DNA from: Fimbriimonadia bacterium | Lineage (GTDB): Bacteria; Armatimonadota; Fimbriimonadia; Fimbriimonadales; Fimbriimonadaceae | DNA: 32,166 nucleotides | Reading direction: 5' to 3' | Assembly (NCBI GenBank): GCA_029824475.1 | Contig: JALGYA010000005.1 | Span: forward strand, 1 to 32,166 | In this document: positions 21,612 to 31,406 of the stretch, in pieces | Layout of the letters: each line of letters begins with the position of its first letter | How positions within the stretch are numbered: position 1 is the first letter of the stretch | Position numbers and translations under genes: made by a program | Notes under the pieces: model-generated | Seen by the model: only the letters and a program-made list of their open reading frames with translations | Told to the model about the DNA's origin: nothing | Database searches by the model: none

Positions 21612-22925
21612 ATGCCGACAGCGGCTTTCACGACCCTTGGCTGCAAAGTCAACCAATACGAGACGCAGAAAATCCTGGACTCCTTCGCGGATGCCGGGTT
21701 CGTTGTCGTGCCGTTTAGTGAAAAAGCCGACATCTACGTGATCAACAGCTGCAGCGTCACCAGCTCGGCTGAGAGCAAGAGCCGATACACTGTCCGCAGG
21801 GCCGCCAGAACCAATCCGGAAGCGAAGATTGTCGTGACCGGCTGCGCCGTTCAGATGGCTATCAATAAGGAAGAAGTGATGGAGGGAGCGCACGTTGCGG
21901 TTCCGAATCCTGAAAAGCTCGACACGCTCGATCACTTCTTCCGCGCGCTGCCTGATTTTGAGCAGTGGGTGAAGGATGAGCCTGCGCCTAAGGATCACAG
22001 GCCGCCAGAAGGGCGGACCCGTGCCAATTTAAAGATTCAAGACGGCTGCAATGTGATGTGCAGCTACTGCTCCATCCCCTTTACTCGGCCTGGCATGACG
22101 TCAAGGCCGTGGCAGGAAGTGCTGGAGGAGGCTCAGCAGCTCGCAGCAAACGGCTACAAGGAAGCGATCCTCACCGGGGTGCTGATTGGCGCCTACGGCC
22201 CGGAATCCGGCAGCGGAGGCCCTGGATTCGAGGAGATCGTCCAGAAGCTGGACGAGGAGTCAGGCCTAGAGCGCATCAGGATCAGCAGCATCGAAATGCA
22301 CCAGGTCACCCAGCCGATTATCGAGCTGGCGAAGAGCGGCCACGTCGCTCCCCACTTCCACATTCCGCTGCAGTGTGGCGACACTCGGGTCCTGAAGGAC
22401 ATGAACCGCCGATACGGCCAGGAAGACTACATCCGCGTCTGCAGCGACATCTACGAACAGGTGCCGGACGTAATGTTGACGACAGATATCCTGGTCGGCT
22501 TCCCGACCGAAACCGAAGAGCGGTTCCAATCGAGCGTTGAGGTCTGTGAGGCAGTGAAGTATCTCAAGGCGCACGTCTTCCGGTTCAGCCCTCGGTACGG
22601 CACACCGGCAGACAAGTGGGGCGATCCGGTCGATCCACAGACCAAGGCCGCAAGGTCAAAAGTGCTGACGGAAGTGACCAAGCGGACAGCTGCTGAACAG
22701 CGCAGCCGCTATCTGGGCCGAACTATGCGCGTACTAGTGGAGCGTAAATCGAAGCGCGACGGCATGCTCGAAGGCACCACAGACAACTGGATCACGGTCA
22801 AGTTTGCCGGACCAGCGGAGCTGGCCCGGACAATGCAGTGGGTGCGGCTTGACGATGAGAAAGACGGTGTCATGTTCGGCGAACTCGCCGCCGAACCTCG
22901 CGGTGCCGAACTGAGCGTTGTCTAA
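21612..22925 (+). CDS. mtaB: tRNA (t6A37) methylthiotransferase MtaB
   Basis: MtaB adds a methylthio group to N6-threonylcarbamoyladenosine at position 37 of certain tRNAs, using radical SAM chemistry and two iron-sulphur clusters. The first cluster is held by C11 (TLGCKVNQYE), C47 (INSCSVT) and C78 (VTGCAVQ). The radical-SAM cluster motif is C146-NVM-C150-SY-C153. The C-terminal end from about residue 375 looks like a TRAM domain. KVNQYE and INSCSVT set it apart from MiaB (which reads CQMN and NTC). ATG 21612 gives 437 aa; the frame is open 174 bp further upstream but that would run through the promoter. It converges on the next gene with a 4-bp overlap of stops. Confidence 0.94.
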   Translation: MPTAAFTTLGCKVNQYETQKILDSFADAGFVVVPFSEKADIYVINSCSVTSSAESKSRYTVRRAARTNPEAKIVVTGCAVQMAINKEEVMEGAHVAVPNPEKLDTLDHFFRALPDFEQWVKDEPAPKDHRPPEGRTRANLKIQDGCNVMCSYCSIPFTRPGMTSRPWQEVLEEAQQLAANGYKEAILTGVLIGAYGPESGSGGPGFEEIVQKLDEESGLERIRISSIEMHQVTQPIIELAKSGHVAPHFHIPLQCGDTRVLKDMNRRYGQEDYIRVCSDIYEQVPDVMLTTDILVGFPTETEERFQSSVEVCEAVKYLKAHVFRFSPRYGTPADKWGDPVDPQTKAARSKVLTEVTKRTAAEQRSRYLGRTMRVLVERKSKRDGMLEGTTDNWITVKFAGPAELARTMQWVRLDDEKDGVMFGELAAEPRGAELSVV

Positions 22926-24706
22926 GACGCTTTGATCAGCTTCAACTCAGCCTGATACCGCTTCTGCGTGTCGGTGTCCTTGTCGATCTTCGCCAGTTTG
23001 ATCAGGTGGTTGCAGAGCGATGTCGCCAGCTTCTTGTCGCCGGCAGTCTTGGCGTCTTCCATCCGGAAGCTGAGGAAACCCATCGCTTTTGCGCGCGTCA
23101 TGGAATCGAGCTCTGAGAGCTCCATGTAGCGTGGGAGGATGCTGTTGCGCACGTCGGGACGAGCCATCGCAGATCTCGCTGCGATCTCCATTGCAAGCAC
23201 GGTCTCTCGCTGCTCAGTCGGCTTCATCGCCTTCCATGTGTCGGCTTGCGTCTTCTTGTTGAAAATTCCGGTGATGCTCTTCTTTCTGCCGGTCGTCCTG
23301 CGGACGGTTCGGTCTATCAGCAGGTGCATGGAGTAGGCAGCTGTGCCTTTCTGCAACTTGGCGTCCCCGCCCACAACAGCCTCGGCGGCAGACTGCACAT
23401 AGCTCCTGGTGCCAGCATCCTTGAGAATCGACTTCGCCAGCTTTGTTTCCGCAGCAGCGATCAGATCGACCATGATGATCGGATAGTTGCCGAATGCCTC
23501 TGTGATCCGGGCTGCCTGGTCCTCTGGCGTCTGAGAGCCGGAAGCCGTCAGCGCCTGGTGAGCTGGCACATTATACGGCTGTGCCTCTACCGAGGCCGCG
23601 TAGGCTGCCTGAGACTTCTCTGGGCTGAGGCCCTTCCAGTGGTCGCCGATCCACCGCAGCCTCTCTGAGGCAAGCAGATCGCCGGAGCGGTAGGCGGTGT
23701 CGAAGGCCAAGACATAGCTTGCTGTGCGGCCCCATGGCATTCGTGTTCCTCCATGCTGAGTCGACCGCTGCCAGCCTGAAATATTGTAGTGCAGCCCCCA
23801 ATCTGTGGGTGAGATGCGGGTCAAGAAAGCGCAATGGCCAGGCTGACCGACAGGCATCCCAGGGATCCCGAATGCCTGAGCCGTGGCAGTTCCGAATCGT
23901 GAGATCCCGCCACAGACTGCGCCAACCTCAGTCATAAGCTTCAGAGTCATTGGCTTGTAATCGTAGTACGCTGCCCCCTTTTGGACCGAAACGCCTTTGG
24001 AGTTGAACAGCCGGTAAGGGACGCGCCCGAGCGATTTGTGGATCAGCGCCTGCTGCTTGATCTTGTCGTCGGTTGTCTCGCGTGCCCAATCGAGGTCCGT
24101 ATCGAGTGCCCAGGCTCCTGAGACGTATTTGAGCTCCCAAACGGGGGCGTCGTTGAAGTAGGGGAACAGTTGGCCATTGCGGTTGGCCTCAATAAAGTAG
24201 TCGAACCGCTCCAGCGGCTCGATCTTCTTGCCGTTGGCCATGGCGTTGATCTGCGTGCTGTGGACGAGGGCCGTCGCCATCGCGAATCGCTGCTCGATGC
24301 CTGGTTTCCTTGCCGCTTCTCGCTCGGTCCAGATGCGGTGCCAGATTTCTAGGCCGGAGACCTTAAACTCCGCTGGTGTACCGCTGAGCAGGTAGGTGTT
24401 TAGCAGCTCTTCGTCTTCGAGAAGCCACTCGAGGAACGCGCTCGCTCCCTGCCGCTTTTTGAATTCGGTGAGATCGGTTGGGCTGATGAAGCGCAGGAAG
24501 CGCAGTTGTGCAGCCGACTTGCCGAACCCTTCGTCATAGGCGAGCGCTGCGAGGTCTGCTCCTACGCCTGTTTCTGCCTGGACCAGCTTGGTCAGCTCGT
24601 CCTTCCAATCGGCAAACCTGCCGGTTCGGGCAGCGCCCGATCCGGTCATCTGGGCAGACGCCCCAGCCGCGATGGCCAGGCAGATGAGAGTTGAAACTCG
24701 CCTCAT
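22922..24706 (-). CDS. Secreted transglutaminase-like protein, large, function unknown
   Basis: The 594-residue protein (ATG 24706) begins with a clear signal peptide, MRRVSTLICLAIAAGASA, cleaved before Gln. Residues about 255-330 hold the only recognisable motif: C265 in VCGGISRFGTATAQAFGIP, H291 in GQPGHCAF and a following DWGLHYN stretch. The Cys-His spacing and the GIP/GQPGH pattern fit the transglutaminase-like (papain-fold) superfamily, which includes cysteine proteases and protein crosslinkers. The N-terminal third is helical and the last 250 residues, also helical, look TPR-like without a clean repeat. The frame extends to a TTG at 24757 but the signal peptide supports the ATG. Target and activity are unknown. 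It is probably monocistronic. Confidence 0.7.
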   Translation of the reverse strand: MRRVSTLICLAIAAGASAQMTGSGAARTGRFADWKDELTKLVQAETGVGADLAALAYDEGFGKSAAQLRFLRFISPTDLTEFKKRQGASAFLEWLLEDEELLNTYLLSGTPAEFKVSGLEIWHRIWTEREAARKPGIEQRFAMATALVHSTQINAMANGKKIEPLERFDYFIEANRNGQLFPYFNDAPVWELKYVSGAWALDTDLDWARETTDDKIKQQALIHKSLGRVPYRLFNSKGVSVQKGAAYYDYKPMTLKLMTEVGAVCGGISRFGTATAQAFGIPGMPVGQPGHCAFLTRISPTDWGLHYNISGWQRSTQHGGTRMPWGRTASYVLAFDTAYRSGDLLASERLRWIGDHWKGLSPEKSQAAYAASVEAQPYNVPAHQALTASGSQTPEDQAARITEAFGNYPIIMVDLIAAAETKLAKSILKDAGTRSYVQSAAEAVVGGDAKLQKGTAAYSMHLLIDRTVRRTTGRKKSITGIFNKKTQADTWKAMKPTEQRETVLAMEIAARSAMARPDVRNSILPRYMELSELDSMTRAKAMGFLSFRMEDAKTAGDKKLATSLCNHLIKLAKIDKDTDTQKRYQAELKLIKAS

Positions 24707-24716
24707 TCTGCTGGCA

Positions 24717-24722
24717 ATGATA
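24717..24722 (-). promoter_or_regulatory. Putative -10 box of the transglutaminase-like gene
   Basis: TATCAT on the minus strand ends 10 nt before ATG 24706, so the leader would be very short. No Shine-Dalgarno site is visible. Confidence 0.35.
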
Positions 24723-24765
24723 CTGCGTTGCCGGGTCCGCTGAAATGAACCCGGCAATTGTGCAG

Positions 24766-26268
24766 TTAGGCGTCGAAGCTGATGCCCTGGGCCAGAGCTG
24801 GCTTGTCGGTCCCGAAGTAGGTGGTGCTCGTCTGGCGGCGCATGTAGGCGCGCCAGGCATCTGAGCCGGATTCGCGGCCACCGCCTGTCTCCTTTTCGCC
24901 GCCAAACGCTCCGCCGATTTCCGCTCCGCTGGTGCCGATGTTCACGTTGGCGATGCCGCAGTCGCTGCGCCGCTTGAAGAACTCTGCCTCCCGGACGTCG
25001 GTGGTCATGATCGCGCTGCTGAGGCCCTGCGGGACTGCGTTGTGCATCTCCATCGCCTCTTCCAGCGTGTCGTAGGGGATCACGTAGGTGAGCGGAGCAA
25101 ATGTCTCGGTGAGAATTGGCTCTGGCTGATCCGTCAGCTTGACAAGGCAGGGTTCGGCATAGAAGGCGTCCGCAGGTCCGGCAGCTCTTTCGCCTCCGAC
25201 AATCTCTTCGGCGTGGGGCTTGATCGCCTCAATCGCGGCCTGCATGTTGGTCCAGGCGTCGCCGTCGATCATCGGGCCGACCAGCGTGTCTGCGTCGAGC
25301 GGACTTCCAATCTTGGATTTGGCAATGTCAAGGATCGCCATTTTCATTTTGTCAAAGACCTGGTCGTGAATCGAACGGTGTACAAAGACTCGACGAGTTG
25401 AGGTGCAGCGCTGACCAGCGGTCCCGACTGCGCCAAAGACGATTGATGGCATCGCGACATCAAGGTCCGCGCTGGGAGTGACGATGACAGCATTGTTGCC
25501 GCCCAATTCCAGAAGTGTGCGCCCAAACCGTGCGGCCACCTTCGGTCCGACAATCCTGCCCATGCGGCAGCTTCCTGTCGCGCTGATGAGCGGAAGTCTT
25601 GAGTCGTTCACCATCTGCTCGCCCTGCTCAGCTGTGCCGATAATGATCTGGCTCAGATGAGCCGGGGCATCGCCGAACTCCTCGCAGGCTTCGTCAAAGA
25701 TTGCCTGGCAGGCGAGGGCTGTGAGCGGGGTCTTTTCGGACGGCTTCCAGACAACCGGATCGCCGCAGACGATGGCTAGATCCGCGTACCACGCCCAAAC
25801 CGACACCGGGAAGTTGAATACGCTGATGATGCCGACCGGGCCGAGCGGCAGCCAGTTCTCGTGCATCACGTGGTCTGGCCGCTCTGAGGCGATCGTGAGA
25901 CCGTGCAGCTGACGGGAGAGCCCAACTGCGAAGTCGCAGATGTCGATCATCTCCTGGACTTCGCCGCGGCCCTCTTCGATGATCTTGCCGCACTCGAGTG
26001 TGACGAGCTGGGCGAGATCCTCTTTTCTGTCTCTCAGCCGGTTGCCGAAGATGCGGATCAACTCACCACGAGCAGGGCCCGGCACATCGCGCCAGATCTT
26101 GAATGCAGCTTGGGCTCGATCGAGCATCTGGTCAATCTCAGCTTCGGTGTTCAGGGACACAGTTCCGATCAGAGAACCGTCGATGGGAGTTGTGACTCGG
26201 AGGCTTCCGCCGAGGGCGTCCTGGGGGACGAGTCGGGCGAGGATGTGGGAATGGGCTGCGCTGCTCAT
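24766..26268 (-). CDS. Aldehyde dehydrogenase, ALDH7 type (L-aminoadipate-semialdehyde / piperideine-6-carboxylate dehydrogenase-like)
   Basis: ALDH7 enzymes oxidise alpha-aminoadipate semialdehyde to aminoadipate with NAD, a step of lysine breakdown. The 500 residues closely match antiquitin-type sequences: FGRTLLELGGNNA with catalytic-base E254, GTAGQRCTSTRRV with nucleophile C288 (34 residues later, as expected), FNFP with N152, and near the end NVNIGTSGAEIGGAFGGEKETGGGRESGSDAW, a family signature. I use ATG 26268, because the longer frame runs over the start of the divergent gene. No other lysine-degradation gene lies next to it, so broader aldehyde detoxification is possible. Confidence 0.9.
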   Translation of the reverse strand: MSSAAHSHILARLVPQDALGGSLRVTTPIDGSLIGTVSLNTEAEIDQMLDRAQAAFKIWRDVPGPARGELIRIFGNRLRDRKEDLAQLVTLECGKIIEEGRGEVQEMIDICDFAVGLSRQLHGLTIASERPDHVMHENWLPLGPVGIISVFNFPVSVWAWYADLAIVCGDPVVWKPSEKTPLTALACQAIFDEACEEFGDAPAHLSQIIIGTAEQGEQMVNDSRLPLISATGSCRMGRIVGPKVAARFGRTLLELGGNNAVIVTPSADLDVAMPSIVFGAVGTAGQRCTSTRRVFVHRSIHDQVFDKMKMAILDIAKSKIGSPLDADTLVGPMIDGDAWTNMQAAIEAIKPHAEEIVGGERAAGPADAFYAEPCLVKLTDQPEPILTETFAPLTYVIPYDTLEEAMEMHNAVPQGLSSAIMTTDVREAEFFKRRSDCGIANVNIGTSGAEIGGAFGGEKETGGGRESGSDAWRAYMRRQTSTTYFGTDKPALAQGISFDA

Positions 26269-26278
26269 TTCTGCGTGC

Positions 26279-26284
26279 AGTTTA
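26279..26284 (-). promoter_or_regulatory. Putative -10 box of the aldehyde dehydrogenase gene
   Basis: TAAACT on the minus strand ends 10 nt before ATG 26268. It lies 37 bp from the opposing box of the phosphatase gene in a 67-bp divergent gap. Confidence 0.35.
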
Positions 26285-26321
26285 GCCTGAGGATCACGCG
26301 TGCCGTAAGGTCCAGCCCCGG

Positions 26322-26327
26322 TAGAAT
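26322..26327 (+). promoter_or_regulatory. Putative -10 box giving a leaderless phosphatase transcript
   Basis: TAGAAT followed by CG ends exactly 8 nt before ATG 26336, as in def and mtaB. There is no ribosome site and no recognisable -35. Confidence 0.5.
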
Positions 26328-26335
26328 CGGCCTCG

Positions 26336-28186
26336 ATGAGAAGTCGCTTTCTCCTGCCCGTTGTGGCATTGCTGAGCACGGCCGTGATGGCCCACGATGG
26401 ACCGGATCCCCTGGCGCATTGGATTGTGAGCCCAAGCAAGGTCAAGGATGGCGTACTTCACTCCCGACTTGGACCGAACGCGACAGTCGTTGGCAAACCG
26501 ATGGTCCTGACTGATGCAGGAGGCCAGACCCTCCTCTTTAACGGGGCCGATGTCTTCATGAGCATCGCTGACGACTTCAAGTCTGCAGCCCGGTACGTGC
26601 CCAAAAGGAACATCACAGTAAGTGCTTGGGTCTCCGTTGAGCAGCCTCAGCGCTGGGGTGGATTCGTCGGCATCGTGCAGGACAACGCCGACTCGGAGCA
26701 GGGCTGGGTGCTCGGCTACGATGACTCTTCATTCACCTGGGCGCTGGCAGGGAAAGACTCAGCCGATGAAGACGGCACGATGACCTATCTGAAGGGAAAA
26801 ACAGCGTACGAGAAGGGCCGTCTCTACCACGTTGTGGGCGTCTACGACGGCGAGACCATGCAGATCTACGTTAACGGCAAGCTTGACGCCGAGACTGATG
26901 CCCAGAAAGGCGACATTCTCTATCCGGAATCTGCCCCCTTCGTGATCGGAGCCTACAAAGACAGCAATGAGCACAACGCTCACAAAGGGCAGATCCGGGA
27001 TGCCGCGATCTATGATCTGGCTGCCAAGGCGGAATGGGCGAAGCATGAGTTTGACCACTCCAGCGAGCTGACGAAGATCAAGCCGCAGATTGTCTATCCC
27101 GAAGAATTCGAGTTCGTTGTGGAGCCGTATCTGCAGTTCGGCACGATGGACAGCATGACGGTGATGTGGGAGACCAACCGGCCCGCCCGATCCATCGTCA
27201 GTTTTGGAGAAACAGCAGAGTTTGGGCAGGCCAGAGTTGATGCCAAGCTCAAGCTTATGCACGAGGTCAAACTGGTCGGGCTGAAGCCGGACATGGCCTA
27301 CTACTATCAAGTCGAAACCAACGATGACCGTGGCCGCAAGCTGACCGGCGAGCAGCTCAGCTTCCAGACCGCCTGCGACGAAGAGACACCTTACGGCTTC
27401 GCTGTTATCAGTGACACGCAGAGCAACCCTCAGGTTGCAGAGCAGATTGCGGGCCACGCATGGTCACATCGACCGCGATTCGTCGTCCATCCGGGCGACT
27501 TGGTCGGGACCGGAGCGAACAAATCGCACTGGACGCACCAGTTCTTCCCGGCTATGAACCAGCTGATCGAACGGGTGCCTTTCTATTCAGTGCTAGGCAA
27601 CCACGAGGGAAATGCGAAGTACTACTACGACTACGTCTCACTGCCCGGCAAGGAGTATTACTACACCTTCAAATACGGCAATGCTCAGTTCTTCATGATC
27701 GACACCAACAAGAAAGTTGGCCCGGGAACAGAGCAGTACGAGTGGCTGGAGTCGGAGCTGGCCAAGTCGACGGCGACGTGGAAGTTTGTGTCGCACCACC
27801 ACCCTTCGTACAGCTCAGACGAAAATGACTACGGCAACCTCTGGAAAGGAAAGAGCAGCTATGGCGACATGCGGGTCAAGCAGCTCACGCCGCTGTACGA
27901 CAAGTACGGGGTCGACATCGTCTGGAACGGCCACATCCACAGCTACGAGCGGACCTGGCCAGTGATTGGAGGCAAAGTTGTTGACGACGCAGGCACGATC
28001 TACATGATCACAGGCGGCGGCGGCGGCGGGCTCGAAACTCCCGGCCCGGTCAAGCCCTTCTTCCAGAACAACGTGCGACGAGGCCATCACTTTGTGACCG
28101 TGGCAGTGAACGGGCGGACACTGGAGATGAAGGCCTTTGATATCGACGGAAAATTGTTCGATTTCCTGAAGATCGACAAGCGATAA
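26336..28186 (+). CDS. Secreted LamG-domain metallophosphoesterase (purple acid phosphatase-like)
   Basis: The 616-residue protein has a signal peptide (MRSRFLLPVVALLSTAVMA, cleaved before HDG). Residues about 25-235 form a concanavalin A-like LamG domain (ISAWVSVE-like strands, YHVVGVYDGETMQIYVNGKLD). Residues about 255-345 are the fibronectin-like N-terminal domain of purple acid phosphatases (VEPYLQFGTMDSMTVMWET, YYYQVET). The catalytic domain follows with D360 (ISDTQ), D387 (GDL), N422-H423 (GNHE), H488 in the SHHH stretch and GHIH at 532-535. The tyrosine that colours classical enzymes (GDxxY) is replaced by Gly (GDLVG), so the metal site is probably not the purple Fe type. The substrate could be extracellular phosphomonoesters; LamG suggests binding to a glycan or surface. 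Confidence 0.88.
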   Translation: MRSRFLLPVVALLSTAVMAHDGPDPLAHWIVSPSKVKDGVLHSRLGPNATVVGKPMVLTDAGGQTLLFNGADVFMSIADDFKSAARYVPKRNITVSAWVSVEQPQRWGGFVGIVQDNADSEQGWVLGYDDSSFTWALAGKDSADEDGTMTYLKGKTAYEKGRLYHVVGVYDGETMQIYVNGKLDAETDAQKGDILYPESAPFVIGAYKDSNEHNAHKGQIRDAAIYDLAAKAEWAKHEFDHSSELTKIKPQIVYPEEFEFVVEPYLQFGTMDSMTVMWETNRPARSIVSFGETAEFGQARVDAKLKLMHEVKLVGLKPDMAYYYQVETNDDRGRKLTGEQLSFQTACDEETPYGFAVISDTQSNPQVAEQIAGHAWSHRPRFVVHPGDLVGTGANKSHWTHQFFPAMNQLIERVPFYSVLGNHEGNAKYYYDYVSLPGKEYYYTFKYGNAQFFMIDTNKKVGPGTEQYEWLESELAKSTATWKFVSHHHPSYSSDENDYGNLWKGKSSYGDMRVKQLTPLYDKYGVDIVWNGHIHSYERTWPVIGGKVVDDAGTIYMITGGGGGGLETPGPVKPFFQNNVRRGHHFVTVAVNGRTLEMKAFDIDGKLFDFLKIDKR

Positions 28187-28268: not shown

Positions 28269-29765
28269 ATGCTGCTCGATTTTAGGGCTGGAGATGACCT
28301 CCCACCAGCCGACTTAATCATCATCGGCGCGGGGGCTGCTGGACTCACGCTTGCGCGTGAGCTGGCCGACACGGACCTCCGCGTGCTCATCCTCGAAGCG
28401 GGCGCACGCGACCTCGACAAAGGCCTTCTGGGGCACGAAGCTCCGGGCCTTCCTTATCGCGGGGCGACCTCGGTTGGCCGCATCAAAGCGTTTGGCGGCT
28501 CAACGCTGAGCTGGGCGGGGCAGTCGCTCGAGATCAGCAAGAACGTTTATGGGCCCAGACCTTGGATCCGGGATGCAGACTGGCCAATTGGGCCAGAGGA
28601 CGTGGAACCGTATTACGGGCGAGCGCTGAAGGCGATGAACGTGCCTGATCTGCAGATCGCAGATTCGCCCTGGGCCGACGGCTGGCCTGAGTTTGACCAA
28701 GATCAGCTTTCGATGACCGCGAGCATGTGGTCGGCACAGCCAAACCTTGCAGAAGAGCACGAGCCTTGGCTGTCCAATTCGCGCAATGTTCATTGTGCCA
28801 TCGGTGCGGCAGTGGTCCGCATCAATATCGGGGCAAGGGCAGAGTCAGTTGTCGTGCGGACCCTTGAGGGGCGCGAAGTCACTGTTGAGGCTGAACGCAT
28901 CGTTGTCTGCTCCGGCGGCATCGAAGCGCCGAGACTGCTTCTTGCCTCTGGACTCGGCGACCCGCTTCCTTGGACAGGGAAGGGCTTTCACGACCACGTT
29001 TCTATTATCTGCGCAGAGATCATTCCGAACGACCGAAAGGAGTTCGACGAGATCTTCCAGAACTGGTACTCGGACGGCGGCAAGCTCATGCCCAAACTGC
29101 TGCTCTCTGCTGAAAAGCAGGAGGCAGAGAAGCTTGTTGAAGTTGGCGGCCACATGGTCTTTGGGGCGTCTGGTGGCTTCGAGGCGCTCAAGGGTCTCCG
29201 GAAAGCCAAGTCGATAAAGGACGCCACACCCTTTGCCGGCCAGGCGCTGAAGTCTCTGCCGGAGGCTGCGGCAGCGGCCGTAGCCGCAGGAATCAAGGGC
29301 CGGTCTTACGCGCCCGCAAACTCCAAGATCGAGTTCGAAGCTCTTTGTGAGCAGTCGCCTCACAACGGTTCAGAAGTCCGCCTCTCCAACAGGAAAGATG
29401 AGTTTGGAATGCCACTGCCGATCATCGACTTCAAGATTGGGGACGAGACTCAGAAGTCGATCACGGTGTTGATGCAGACGGTCTCGGAGCAGCTGAAAGG
29501 GCTTGCAGAGATTCGCATCTATGAGGATCGCCTCAGCTCGCAGCAGGAGTTCCACCGCTGGGCGGGCGATATCTACCACCCGATGGGCGCCACTCGAATG
29601 TCAGCAAATCCTGAAGATGGGGTTGTGGACAAGAACCTTCAAGTCCACGGCGTTGACAACCTATTTGTGGCCTCTACCAGCTGCTTCCCATCGGGTGGCT
29701 GGTCGAACCCAACTTACGCCATGTTGGCGCTCGTCTGTCGCTTGGCTGACCAAATCAAAAAGTGA
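28269..29765 (+). CDS. GMC-family FAD-dependent oxidoreductase (active-site residues present)
   Basis: GMC enzymes oxidise alcohols or sugars with FAD. The 498 residues have the N-terminal FAD-binding fold (IIIGAGAAGLTLARELA, G20/G22/G25, then VLILEAG), the GGS motif in FGGSTLSWAGQSL, and the C-terminal GMC domain. The active-site pair is H437 in YHPMGATRMS and N480 in GGWSNPTY. GPRPWIRDADWPIGPEDVEPYYGRA resembles the sugar-oxidising branch (pyranose/gluconate type), but the substrate is not certain. It has no signal peptide or heme/Tat motif. It is followed after 42 bp by a paralogue, with which it forms a two-gene unit. Confidence 0.88.
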   Translation: MLLDFRAGDDLPPADLIIIGAGAAGLTLARELADTDLRVLILEAGARDLDKGLLGHEAPGLPYRGATSVGRIKAFGGSTLSWAGQSLEISKNVYGPRPWIRDADWPIGPEDVEPYYGRALKAMNVPDLQIADSPWADGWPEFDQDQLSMTASMWSAQPNLAEEHEPWLSNSRNVHCAIGAAVVRINIGARAESVVVRTLEGREVTVEAERIVVCSGGIEAPRLLLASGLGDPLPWTGKGFHDHVSIICAEIIPNDRKEFDEIFQNWYSDGGKLMPKLLLSAEKQEAEKLVEVGGHMVFGASGGFEALKGLRKAKSIKDATPFAGQALKSLPEAAAAAVAAGIKGRSYAPANSKIEFEALCEQSPHNGSEVRLSNRKDEFGMPLPIIDFKIGDETQKSITVLMQTVSEQLKGLAEIRIYEDRLSSQQEFHRWAGDIYHPMGATRMSANPEDGVVDKNLQVHGVDNLFVASTSCFPSGGWSNPTYAMLALVCRLADQIKK

Positions 29766-29807
29766 TCCCTAAGTTCGGCCAGCAATTGTGCCGAAGATTC
29801 CAGTGGG

Positions 29808-31406
29808 ATGATTCTTGATTTCAGCAAGACAGGCAGCCTTCCAGAGGTTGACCTTGTAATCGCCGGGGCAGGAGCTTGTGGGCTCGCTGTCGCGGCGGAG
29901 CTGTTGGATAGCCCTATTAAGGTACTTATCCTCGAGTCCGGTGGACTTGAGCCCGAGGAAGACGTTGAAGACCTCGGCCGGCTCGACCAGCACTCCTCGG
30001 AGTTCCCAGCAGATCGATCTGTAAGGCGAGCCTATGGCGGCACATCGAAGGACTGGACGGGCGAATCGCTTTTTTACGAGTCTTGGGCGTTCGGTCCCCG
30101 GCCTTGGATTCCTGAGGCTGACTGGCCTGTCAGCGCAAATGAGATAGAGATGTATGCCGACAGGGCGAGAAAAGCCATCGGCATCTCACGCCTGCCAAAT
30201 GGGGCGCTGCCCTGGGAGTCTCGAGGCCAGCTGCCGCCGGACATCGACTATCGCAAGGTCATTCTTACAGCTGCACAGTTCCCCGCGGACCGAGACCTTT
30301 CCGCGAGGCTGCTGGAGCAGATTGAAGCCTCAGAGAATGTCACCCTAGCTCTCCATGCCAACGTGATTGACGTCAGGCTGAACAGAGAGATGAGCGCAGT
30401 CTCCGGCTTGGCAGTGAGAAACGACTTTGGGACGACAATTCTGGCCAAAGGCAAGCAGTTTGTGATCGCCCTCGGCGGAATCGAAACCCCGAGGCTCCTT
30501 CTGGCCTCTAAGTCGCAGGAAGCCCGCGGCATCGGAAACCTGCGTGGAATGGTCGGCCAGGGAGTGCACGATCGCACGCGAATGACCTGCGCACAGGTCT
30601 TCCCGCGCAGGCGCATTGCTTTTGACAGAACGTTTGCTGACTGGCATCTCAACGGCCAGCGTTATCAGCCACAGCTGATCCTTGCAGAGGAGGCTGTCCG
30701 CAGCCTGTCAGCCCTCGGCGTTGGCGGACGAATCGTGTTCGATTCAGACCGAAAAGGCGTCGATGCACTGAGGGGATTCAAGAAAGCTTGGAATGAGAAG
30801 GCGGGCGTCCGGGAAGTGTTCCGGTCTGGCGCTGAAGCTGTTCGTGAACTGCCGATCGCAGCAGGCGAAATCCATGCAAAGTCGATCGCAAAACGATCCT
30901 ATGCTCCGTCGGATGCACAGGTCTATTTGGAAGCATTCTGTGGTCAGCCGCCAGCTAATGGCAGCAGCATCCGCCTCGGCACAGATGTCGATGCGATGGG
31001 CGTGCCGCGGGCGCTCTACACTCACCGTGTTCACAGAAGTGAGCGCGAGTCGATTCTCAACTTCGCAGAGATGTGCGGAGAAGAGCTGAAGGCTGTGGGT
31101 TTAGCATCAAGAACCGCTCTTGAGCCTGCCCTGCTGGATGAAGAGCGGTTCGAGGACTGGTGCAGCCCTGAGGGCCTCGTGATGGGCGGTACACGCATGT
31201 CTCTCGACCCGGCCCGGGGAGTTGTCGACATGGACCTCAAGGTGCATGGGCTCAAGAACCTGTACTGCGCGGGGGCCTCTGTGTTCCCGTCGAGTGGTGC
31301 GGCCGATCCGACACTCACGCTCTTTGCTCTCAACTGCCGTCTGGCAGACCATCTTCAGTGGACTCTTCGGTCTTCAATCGCGGACAACGATCAGCTCGCG
31401 GCGTAA
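29808..31406 (+). CDS. GMC-family oxidoreductase paralogue with altered active site
   Basis: This 532-residue protein is clearly related to its upstream neighbour: same opening (M-x-LDF), FAD motif GAGACGLAVAAEL, YGGTSKDWTGESL, GPRPWIPEADWPVSANEIEMYADRA, and a C-terminal GVVDMDLKVHGLKNLYCAGASVFPS. FAD binding therefore looks intact. However, the His of the catalytic HPMG motif is Leu (L457 in EGLVMGGTRMS) and the partner Asn is Asp (D500 in SGAADPTL). It may be inactive, act as a subunit, or use a different chemistry. The ATG at 29808 directly follows GTGGG. The reading frame is intact, so it is not a simple pseudogene. Confidence 0.85.
   Translation: MILDFSKTGSLPEVDLVIAGAGACGLAVAAELLDSPIKVLILESGGLEPEEDVEDLGRLDQHSSEFPADRSVRRAYGGTSKDWTGESLFYESWAFGPRPWIPEADWPVSANEIEMYADRARKAIGISRLPNGALPWESRGQLPPDIDYRKVILTAAQFPADRDLSARLLEQIEASENVTLALHANVIDVRLNREMSAVSGLAVRNDFGTTILAKGKQFVIALGGIETPRLLLASKSQEARGIGNLRGMVGQGVHDRTRMTCAQVFPRRRIAFDRTFADWHLNGQRYQPQLILAEEAVRSLSALGVGGRIVFDSDRKGVDALRGFKKAWNEKAGVREVFRSGAEAVRELPIAAGEIHAKSIAKRSYAPSDAQVYLEAFCGQPPANGSSIRLGTDVDAMGVPRALYTHRVHRSERESILNFAEMCGEELKAVGLASRTALEPALLDEERFEDWCSPEGLVMGGTRMSLDPARGVVDMDLKVHGLKNLYCAGASVFPSSGAADPTLTLFALNCRLADHLQWTLRSSIADNDQLAA

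Follow-up and report, generated by a model that had tools for sequence, protein, structure and literature searches.

A tandem GMC paralogue from a Fimbriimonadia bacterium that may persist with a stepwise dismantled active site

In GMC enzymes, the first catalytic histidine accepts the alcohol proton as hydride passes to FAD. Activity was abolished when this residue was replaced in a bacterial FAD-glycoside oxidoreductase (H493A/F; PMC4650693) and in an Arthrobacter choline-oxidase-type enzyme (H466A; PMC10991250). The catalytic pair of B. cepacia FAD-GDH has been named as His476/Asn519 (PMC6719666), and PMC13076199 reports a His/His pair for aryl-alcohol oxidase and for fungal glucose dehydrogenase. 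Here we describe two adjacent GMC genes, A and B, on a 32,166-nt stretch of Fimbriimonadia DNA (the window), which corresponds to the whole of contig G000:C175 in a 344-contig draft genome. The top-scoring solved relatives of A, of B, and of their joint profile are the FAD glucose dehydrogenase alpha subunit and the fructose dehydrogenase large subunit (6a2u, 8grj, and 7w2j), with which the two proteins share FAD motifs and C-terminal motifs and align at the catalytic columns. These dehydrogenases have partner subunits and, besides the His/Asn pair, a 3Fe-4S region rich in Cys. The cysteines of A and B are scattered and form no comparable Cys cluster, and no small-subunit or cytochrome gene adjoins them, their neighbours being a phosphatase gene upstream and the start of a ribonucleotide-reductase-like gene, judged by eye, downstream of B. 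A direct-electron-transfer FAD dehydrogenase complex was rejected on these two grounds.

The phosphatase gene, A, and B are three co-directional genes at the right end of the contig (Table 1), and their order is common to this contig and a sister genome, a metagenome-assembled genome of the same genus. The LamG and phosphatase gene is present in 12 of the 113 genomes of the order and the GMC pair in two only; the pair has probably been inserted beside this gene or been lost elsewhere. An aldehyde dehydrogenase gene resembling piperidine-6-carboxylate dehydrogenase (24766-26445) is divergent from the phosphatase gene in the window, while its sister counterpart (L012:3010-4506) is co-directional with the phosphatase gene and separated from it by a small lipoprotein-like gene, a difference that is due to a local inversion or rearrangement. 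The 611-aa product of the ORF at 22922-24757 matched nothing in Pfam or NCBIfam at E 1e-3. The 32,166-nt stretch contains no Rfam element, and a search for phage matches found none. Unlike the phosphatase, A and B are probably cytoplasmic, since neither has a signal peptide that is evident by eye.

Table 1. Positions of the genes and residues discussed. Coordinates refer to the window, except those prefixed L012, which refer to the sister genome.
Feature	Position	Strand	Remarks
LamG + purple-acid-phosphatase-like metallophosphatase	26336-28186	+	Upstream of A, co-directional; same order in sister genome
Gene A, GMC oxidoreductase, 498 aa	28269-29765	+	His437/Asn480 pair intact; PF05199 2.6e-20, PF00732 1.2e-9
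A codon 437, CAC (His)	29577-29579	+	Catalytic base column
A codon 480, AAC (Asn)	29706-29708	+	Second catalytic column
Gene B, GMC paralogue, 532 aa, ATG start	29808-31406	+	L457/D500 replace catalytic pair; PF05199 2e-15
B Rossmann FAD-binding segment, residues 15-45 (GAGACG ... LILESG)	29850-29942	+	Intact
B codons 77-78 (Gly-Gly of FAD-site GG[ST] motif)	30036-30041	+	Intact; Gly-Thr in sister B
B codon 256 (Arg)	30573-30575	+	His of DH motif in 23/23 non-B homologues; sister B also Arg
B codon 379 (Gly)	30942-30944	+	Glu in 23/23 non-B homologues; sister B also Gly
B codon 457, CTC (Leu)	31176-31178	+	Catalytic His column; His in 24/24 other homologues
B codon 500, GAT (Asp)	31305-31307	+	Second catalytic column (Asn/His); N, H, F or M elsewhere, never D
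A orthologue	L012:7036-8535
B orthologue	L012:8570-10165

No in-frame stop occurs in the 42 nt that separate the stop codon of A (TGA) from the ATG of B (29763-29810), so that the two genes form a 1049-residue frame interrupted by a single TGA. Readthrough into an A-TGA-B fusion of 1049 aa was considered and rejected: the spacer is 34 nt long and out of frame in the sister genome, and the in-frame arrangement here is attributed to chance. Just 5' of the B start, the segment CCGAAGATTC(C/T)AG (29790-29807) is also common to the sister genome, a match that suggests that the translation start region of B may be conserved.

A and B align end to end with 36% identity (E = 3e-102), and the residue assignments in the preliminary description of this DNA were confirmed: A carries H437/N480 and B carries L457/D500 at the same columns, which coincide with the known GMC catalytic pair. 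L457 aligns on the histidine whose Ala mutant is the fructose dehydrogenase entry 8k6j (H1147A), D500 lies 43 residues beyond it, the same spacing as from H1147 to N1190 (N1190A entry, 8xcn), and the two columns are those of His476/Asn519 in B. cepacia FAD-GDH. With H437, N480, GAGAAG, and GGST, A has both the His/Asn pair and the FAD motifs of a classical GMC alcohol/sugar oxidoreductase, and it matched both GMC Pfam domains. B matched the C-terminal domain only; GMC_oxred_N was not detected at E 1e-3, and the N-terminal Rossmann motif and GG[ST] motif were recognised in the alignment, where the Rossmann motif, GG77-78, and the 532-aa frame are intact, as had been claimed. The PF05199 score of 58.0 bits, against a curated cut-off of 24.6, places B in the GMC superfamily at the fold and family level. 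Confidence is low in an AlphaFold model of B that was built from four sequences (mean pLDDT 53), and its fold matches, GMC enzymes at TM 0.4-0.5, indicate only a GMC-like fold. B departs from the classical enzymes at the catalytic His of the H-x-x-G-x-x-x-M motif, where it has Leu457, and at the second catalytic site, where it has Asp500; yet two other homologues have Phe or Met at the latter.

The columns were evaluated in an alignment of 25 full or near-full homologues, comprising A and B of both species, one further protein from the same phylum, and 20 others from plasmid or megaplasmid records of Proteobacteria, an actinomycete, a cyanobacterium, and a haloarchaeon. The first catalytic column is His in every member except B of this contig. 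At the second, 19 members have Asn, three His, one Phe, and one Met, and Asp occurs in this B alone; because this column varies among the homologues, D500 by itself means less than L457. Twelve columns are invariant in the 23 non-B homologues, and five of these are broken by the two B copies: H256R and E379G in both, H457L in this contig's B only, and G78T (the FAD-motif Gly) and T502N (the Thr of NPT) in the sister B only. The H256R and E379G changes are additional to those of the preliminary description. Position 256 aligns with the DH-motif His of the solved glucose and fructose dehydrogenases, and the significance given here to both positions rests on column invariance. When the A pair was left out in the same way, none of seven invariant columns was broken, and ten other pairs gave zero to three breaks each; the invariant set changes with the pair omitted, so that the denominators differ and these figures serve as a comparison, with no formal test. 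Groups A, B, and A+B are supported at 100/99 or better in the tree, and H256R and E379G, being common to both B copies, show that change began before the two species split.

Scans of genome contigs turned up only the sister contig, and the A-B pair was found in two of the 291 genomes of the phylum Armatimonadota that were searched, both from one genus. The sample of B is accordingly two sequences, each from a draft genome and the sister a metagenome-assembled one. The two species share 46-47% identity in B and 50% in A, against 70% in the phosphatase and 77% in the aldehyde dehydrogenase. Sister B keeps His458 (CAT) and His501 (CAC) at the catalytic columns, and this excludes Leu/Asp as a conserved signature of B, contrary to the inference in the preliminary description of a conserved dead or re-purposed partner. 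There, homologues that keep His and Asn had been taken as the sign of a local loss; the sister has His and His, and the replacement by Leu/Asp is a local loss nonetheless. Parsimony on the tree places the loss of the catalytic His on this contig's own branch. Sister B, with its His/His pair, may be active; GTGS replaces the GG[ST][ST] FAD-site motif in this protein despite the pair.

The B frame is intact in both species, with 532 codons here. Synonymous sites are saturated between the B copies, and constraint was assessed from dN and conserved-column counts, with no formal dN/dS. Between the species, B has a dN of 0.57 and A one of 0.48, compared with 0.23 in the phosphatase gene and 0.18 in the aldehyde dehydrogenase gene; B changes at about 1.2 times the rate of A by this measure, and both GMC genes evolve fast relative to the adjoining phosphatase and aldehyde dehydrogenase genes. 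New substrate use by these two genes is possible. Synonymous saturation together with a dN of 0.57 indicates that B was preserved by selection for the greater part of the period since the split. B has been under purifying selection and has not decayed neutrally across that period.

These observations bear on the earlier suggestion that B is a catalytically dead or re-purposed partner that has been kept. The part that finds support is that B departs from GMC catalysis and is retained, as indicated by the shared H256R and E379G, the private losses of each copy, the conserved tandem, and purifying selection; the part that falls is the conservation of Leu/Asp. The earlier observation was correct and its interpretation partly wrong. 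The two B sequences represent a fast-changing paralogue from which two other invariant residues had already gone before the local Leu/Asp loss, which suggests drift away from normal enzyme function.

We give about even weight to the following reading, that B is a retained GMC-type flavoprotein whose classical alcohol-oxidising site has been dismantled stepwise and which persists in a non-classical role. B would be an old tandem duplicate of A, kept as a folded GMC-type flavoprotein. In a first step, before the species split, His256 would have become Arg and Glu379 Gly. In a second step, confined to this contig's lineage, the catalytic base His would have become Leu and its partner residue Asp; in the sister lineage, the FAD-motif Gly and the Thr of NPT would have been lost instead. 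Since removal of the His abolishes activity in two GMC enzymes, we infer that B of this contig does not oxidise alcohols or sugars in the ordinary way; it probably lacks base-assisted hydride transfer from alcohol to FAD, and FAD itself would be retained. Loss of catalysis as a property of B as a class is weakened by the sample of two sequences, of which the sister keeps His/His. From the conserved tandem order, the simplest reading of the role would be a structural or regulatory partner of A, and assembly with A or support of A is our leading guess. If this account is true, the locus contains a duplicate pair in which one copy is being stripped of conserved active-site residues step by step and has reached different stages in the sister species, so that the sequence of catalytic losses and any newly acquired role are directly testable. 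Annotation by family name would label B an oxidoreductase, and this label may be wrong. To our knowledge, flavoenzyme pseudoenzymes have been little described, and a search of the open-access literature found no description of a tandem active/inactive GMC pair, which is a weak negative.

The main rival to this reading is that B is a flavin-dependent enzyme with altered chemistry or an altered substrate, in which Asp500 or another residue acts as base or the FAD works with no such pair, as in GMC members whose chemistry is non-redox or driven by light. We consider this a tenable but lesser possibility. Fatty acid photodecarboxylase, in which Ala and Gln occupy the two His positions, is active (5ncc; PMC7824139), a GMC hexenal isomerase keeps reduced activity when its His is changed to Ala (PMC13076199), the second catalytic column shows natural variation (N, H, F, M), and this B has an intact FAD Rossmann motif and GG. 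Such an enzyme would nevertheless have to work with H256 and E379, other conserved residues, also replaced; moreover, the best solved relatives of B are the fructose and glucose dehydrogenases, and no photodecarboxylase-like similarity stands out.

That B is instead in early decay in this contig's lineage, a pseudogene to come from which constraint was recently lifted, seems to us unlikely. Both catalytic sites have been lost only in this B while the sister retains the pair, each copy of B loses different conserved residues, and a recent relaxation of constraint in this lineage could have occurred. The 532-codon frame is undamaged, however, and of 28 columns with at least 90% conservation among the other sequences this B violates three, against seven of 29 for sister B; several homologues with the catalytic His violate more such columns than this B does. 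Its tip branch (0.56) is also no longer than that of sister B (0.63). Somewhat more doubtful still is a form of the partner idea in which B would be an FAD-binding pseudo-subunit that forms an active/inactive tandem pair with A, or would use FAD as a light or redox sensor, with conserved catalytic-site residues lost separately in the two species because selection acted on binding alone. Errors of assembly or sequencing, or a strain chimera, at the CTC and GAT codons are highly improbable: the species is represented by one assembly, a 344-contig draft, and each codon is one base from a His or Asn codon, but two independent errors on exactly both catalytic codons would be needed, the frame is undamaged, the residues around both codons have diverged, and H256R and E379G recur in the independent sister assembly.

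The retained-flavoprotein reading can be set against three groups of known GMC proteins. Proteobacterial GMC oxidoreductases from polysaccharide and other loci align over their full length at 28-32% identity, the nearest being that of Cupriavidus metallidurans CH34, which joined A+B in the tree (95/95). All retain the catalytic His, His256, and Glu379 columns, unlike this contig's B, and no tandem homologue is annotated beside them in the regions read. In the region L016:3878-6518, the Cupriavidus gene is followed directly by an aldo/keto-reductase-like ORF, with another GMC-like ORF close by, and a Methylocystis relative (L019) adjoins aldo/keto reductase and aldehyde dehydrogenase genes, neighbours that hint at oxidation-reduction of a sugar or alcohol. 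Fatty acid photodecarboxylase (5ncc) has the GMC fold and is functional with both His positions replaced (PMC7824139), as both are in this contig's B. Its replacements are Ala/Gln and those of B Leu/Asp, it falls far below the dehydrogenases in the profile search, and the absent His pair is the only known point in common. The lepidopteran GMC hexenal isomerases, with their inactive paralogues, are an insect family with no bacterial link, in which the replaced residues are partly at other sites, but they too include duplicated GMC genes, some homologues of which have lost catalytic or FAD-contacting residues (PMC13076199).
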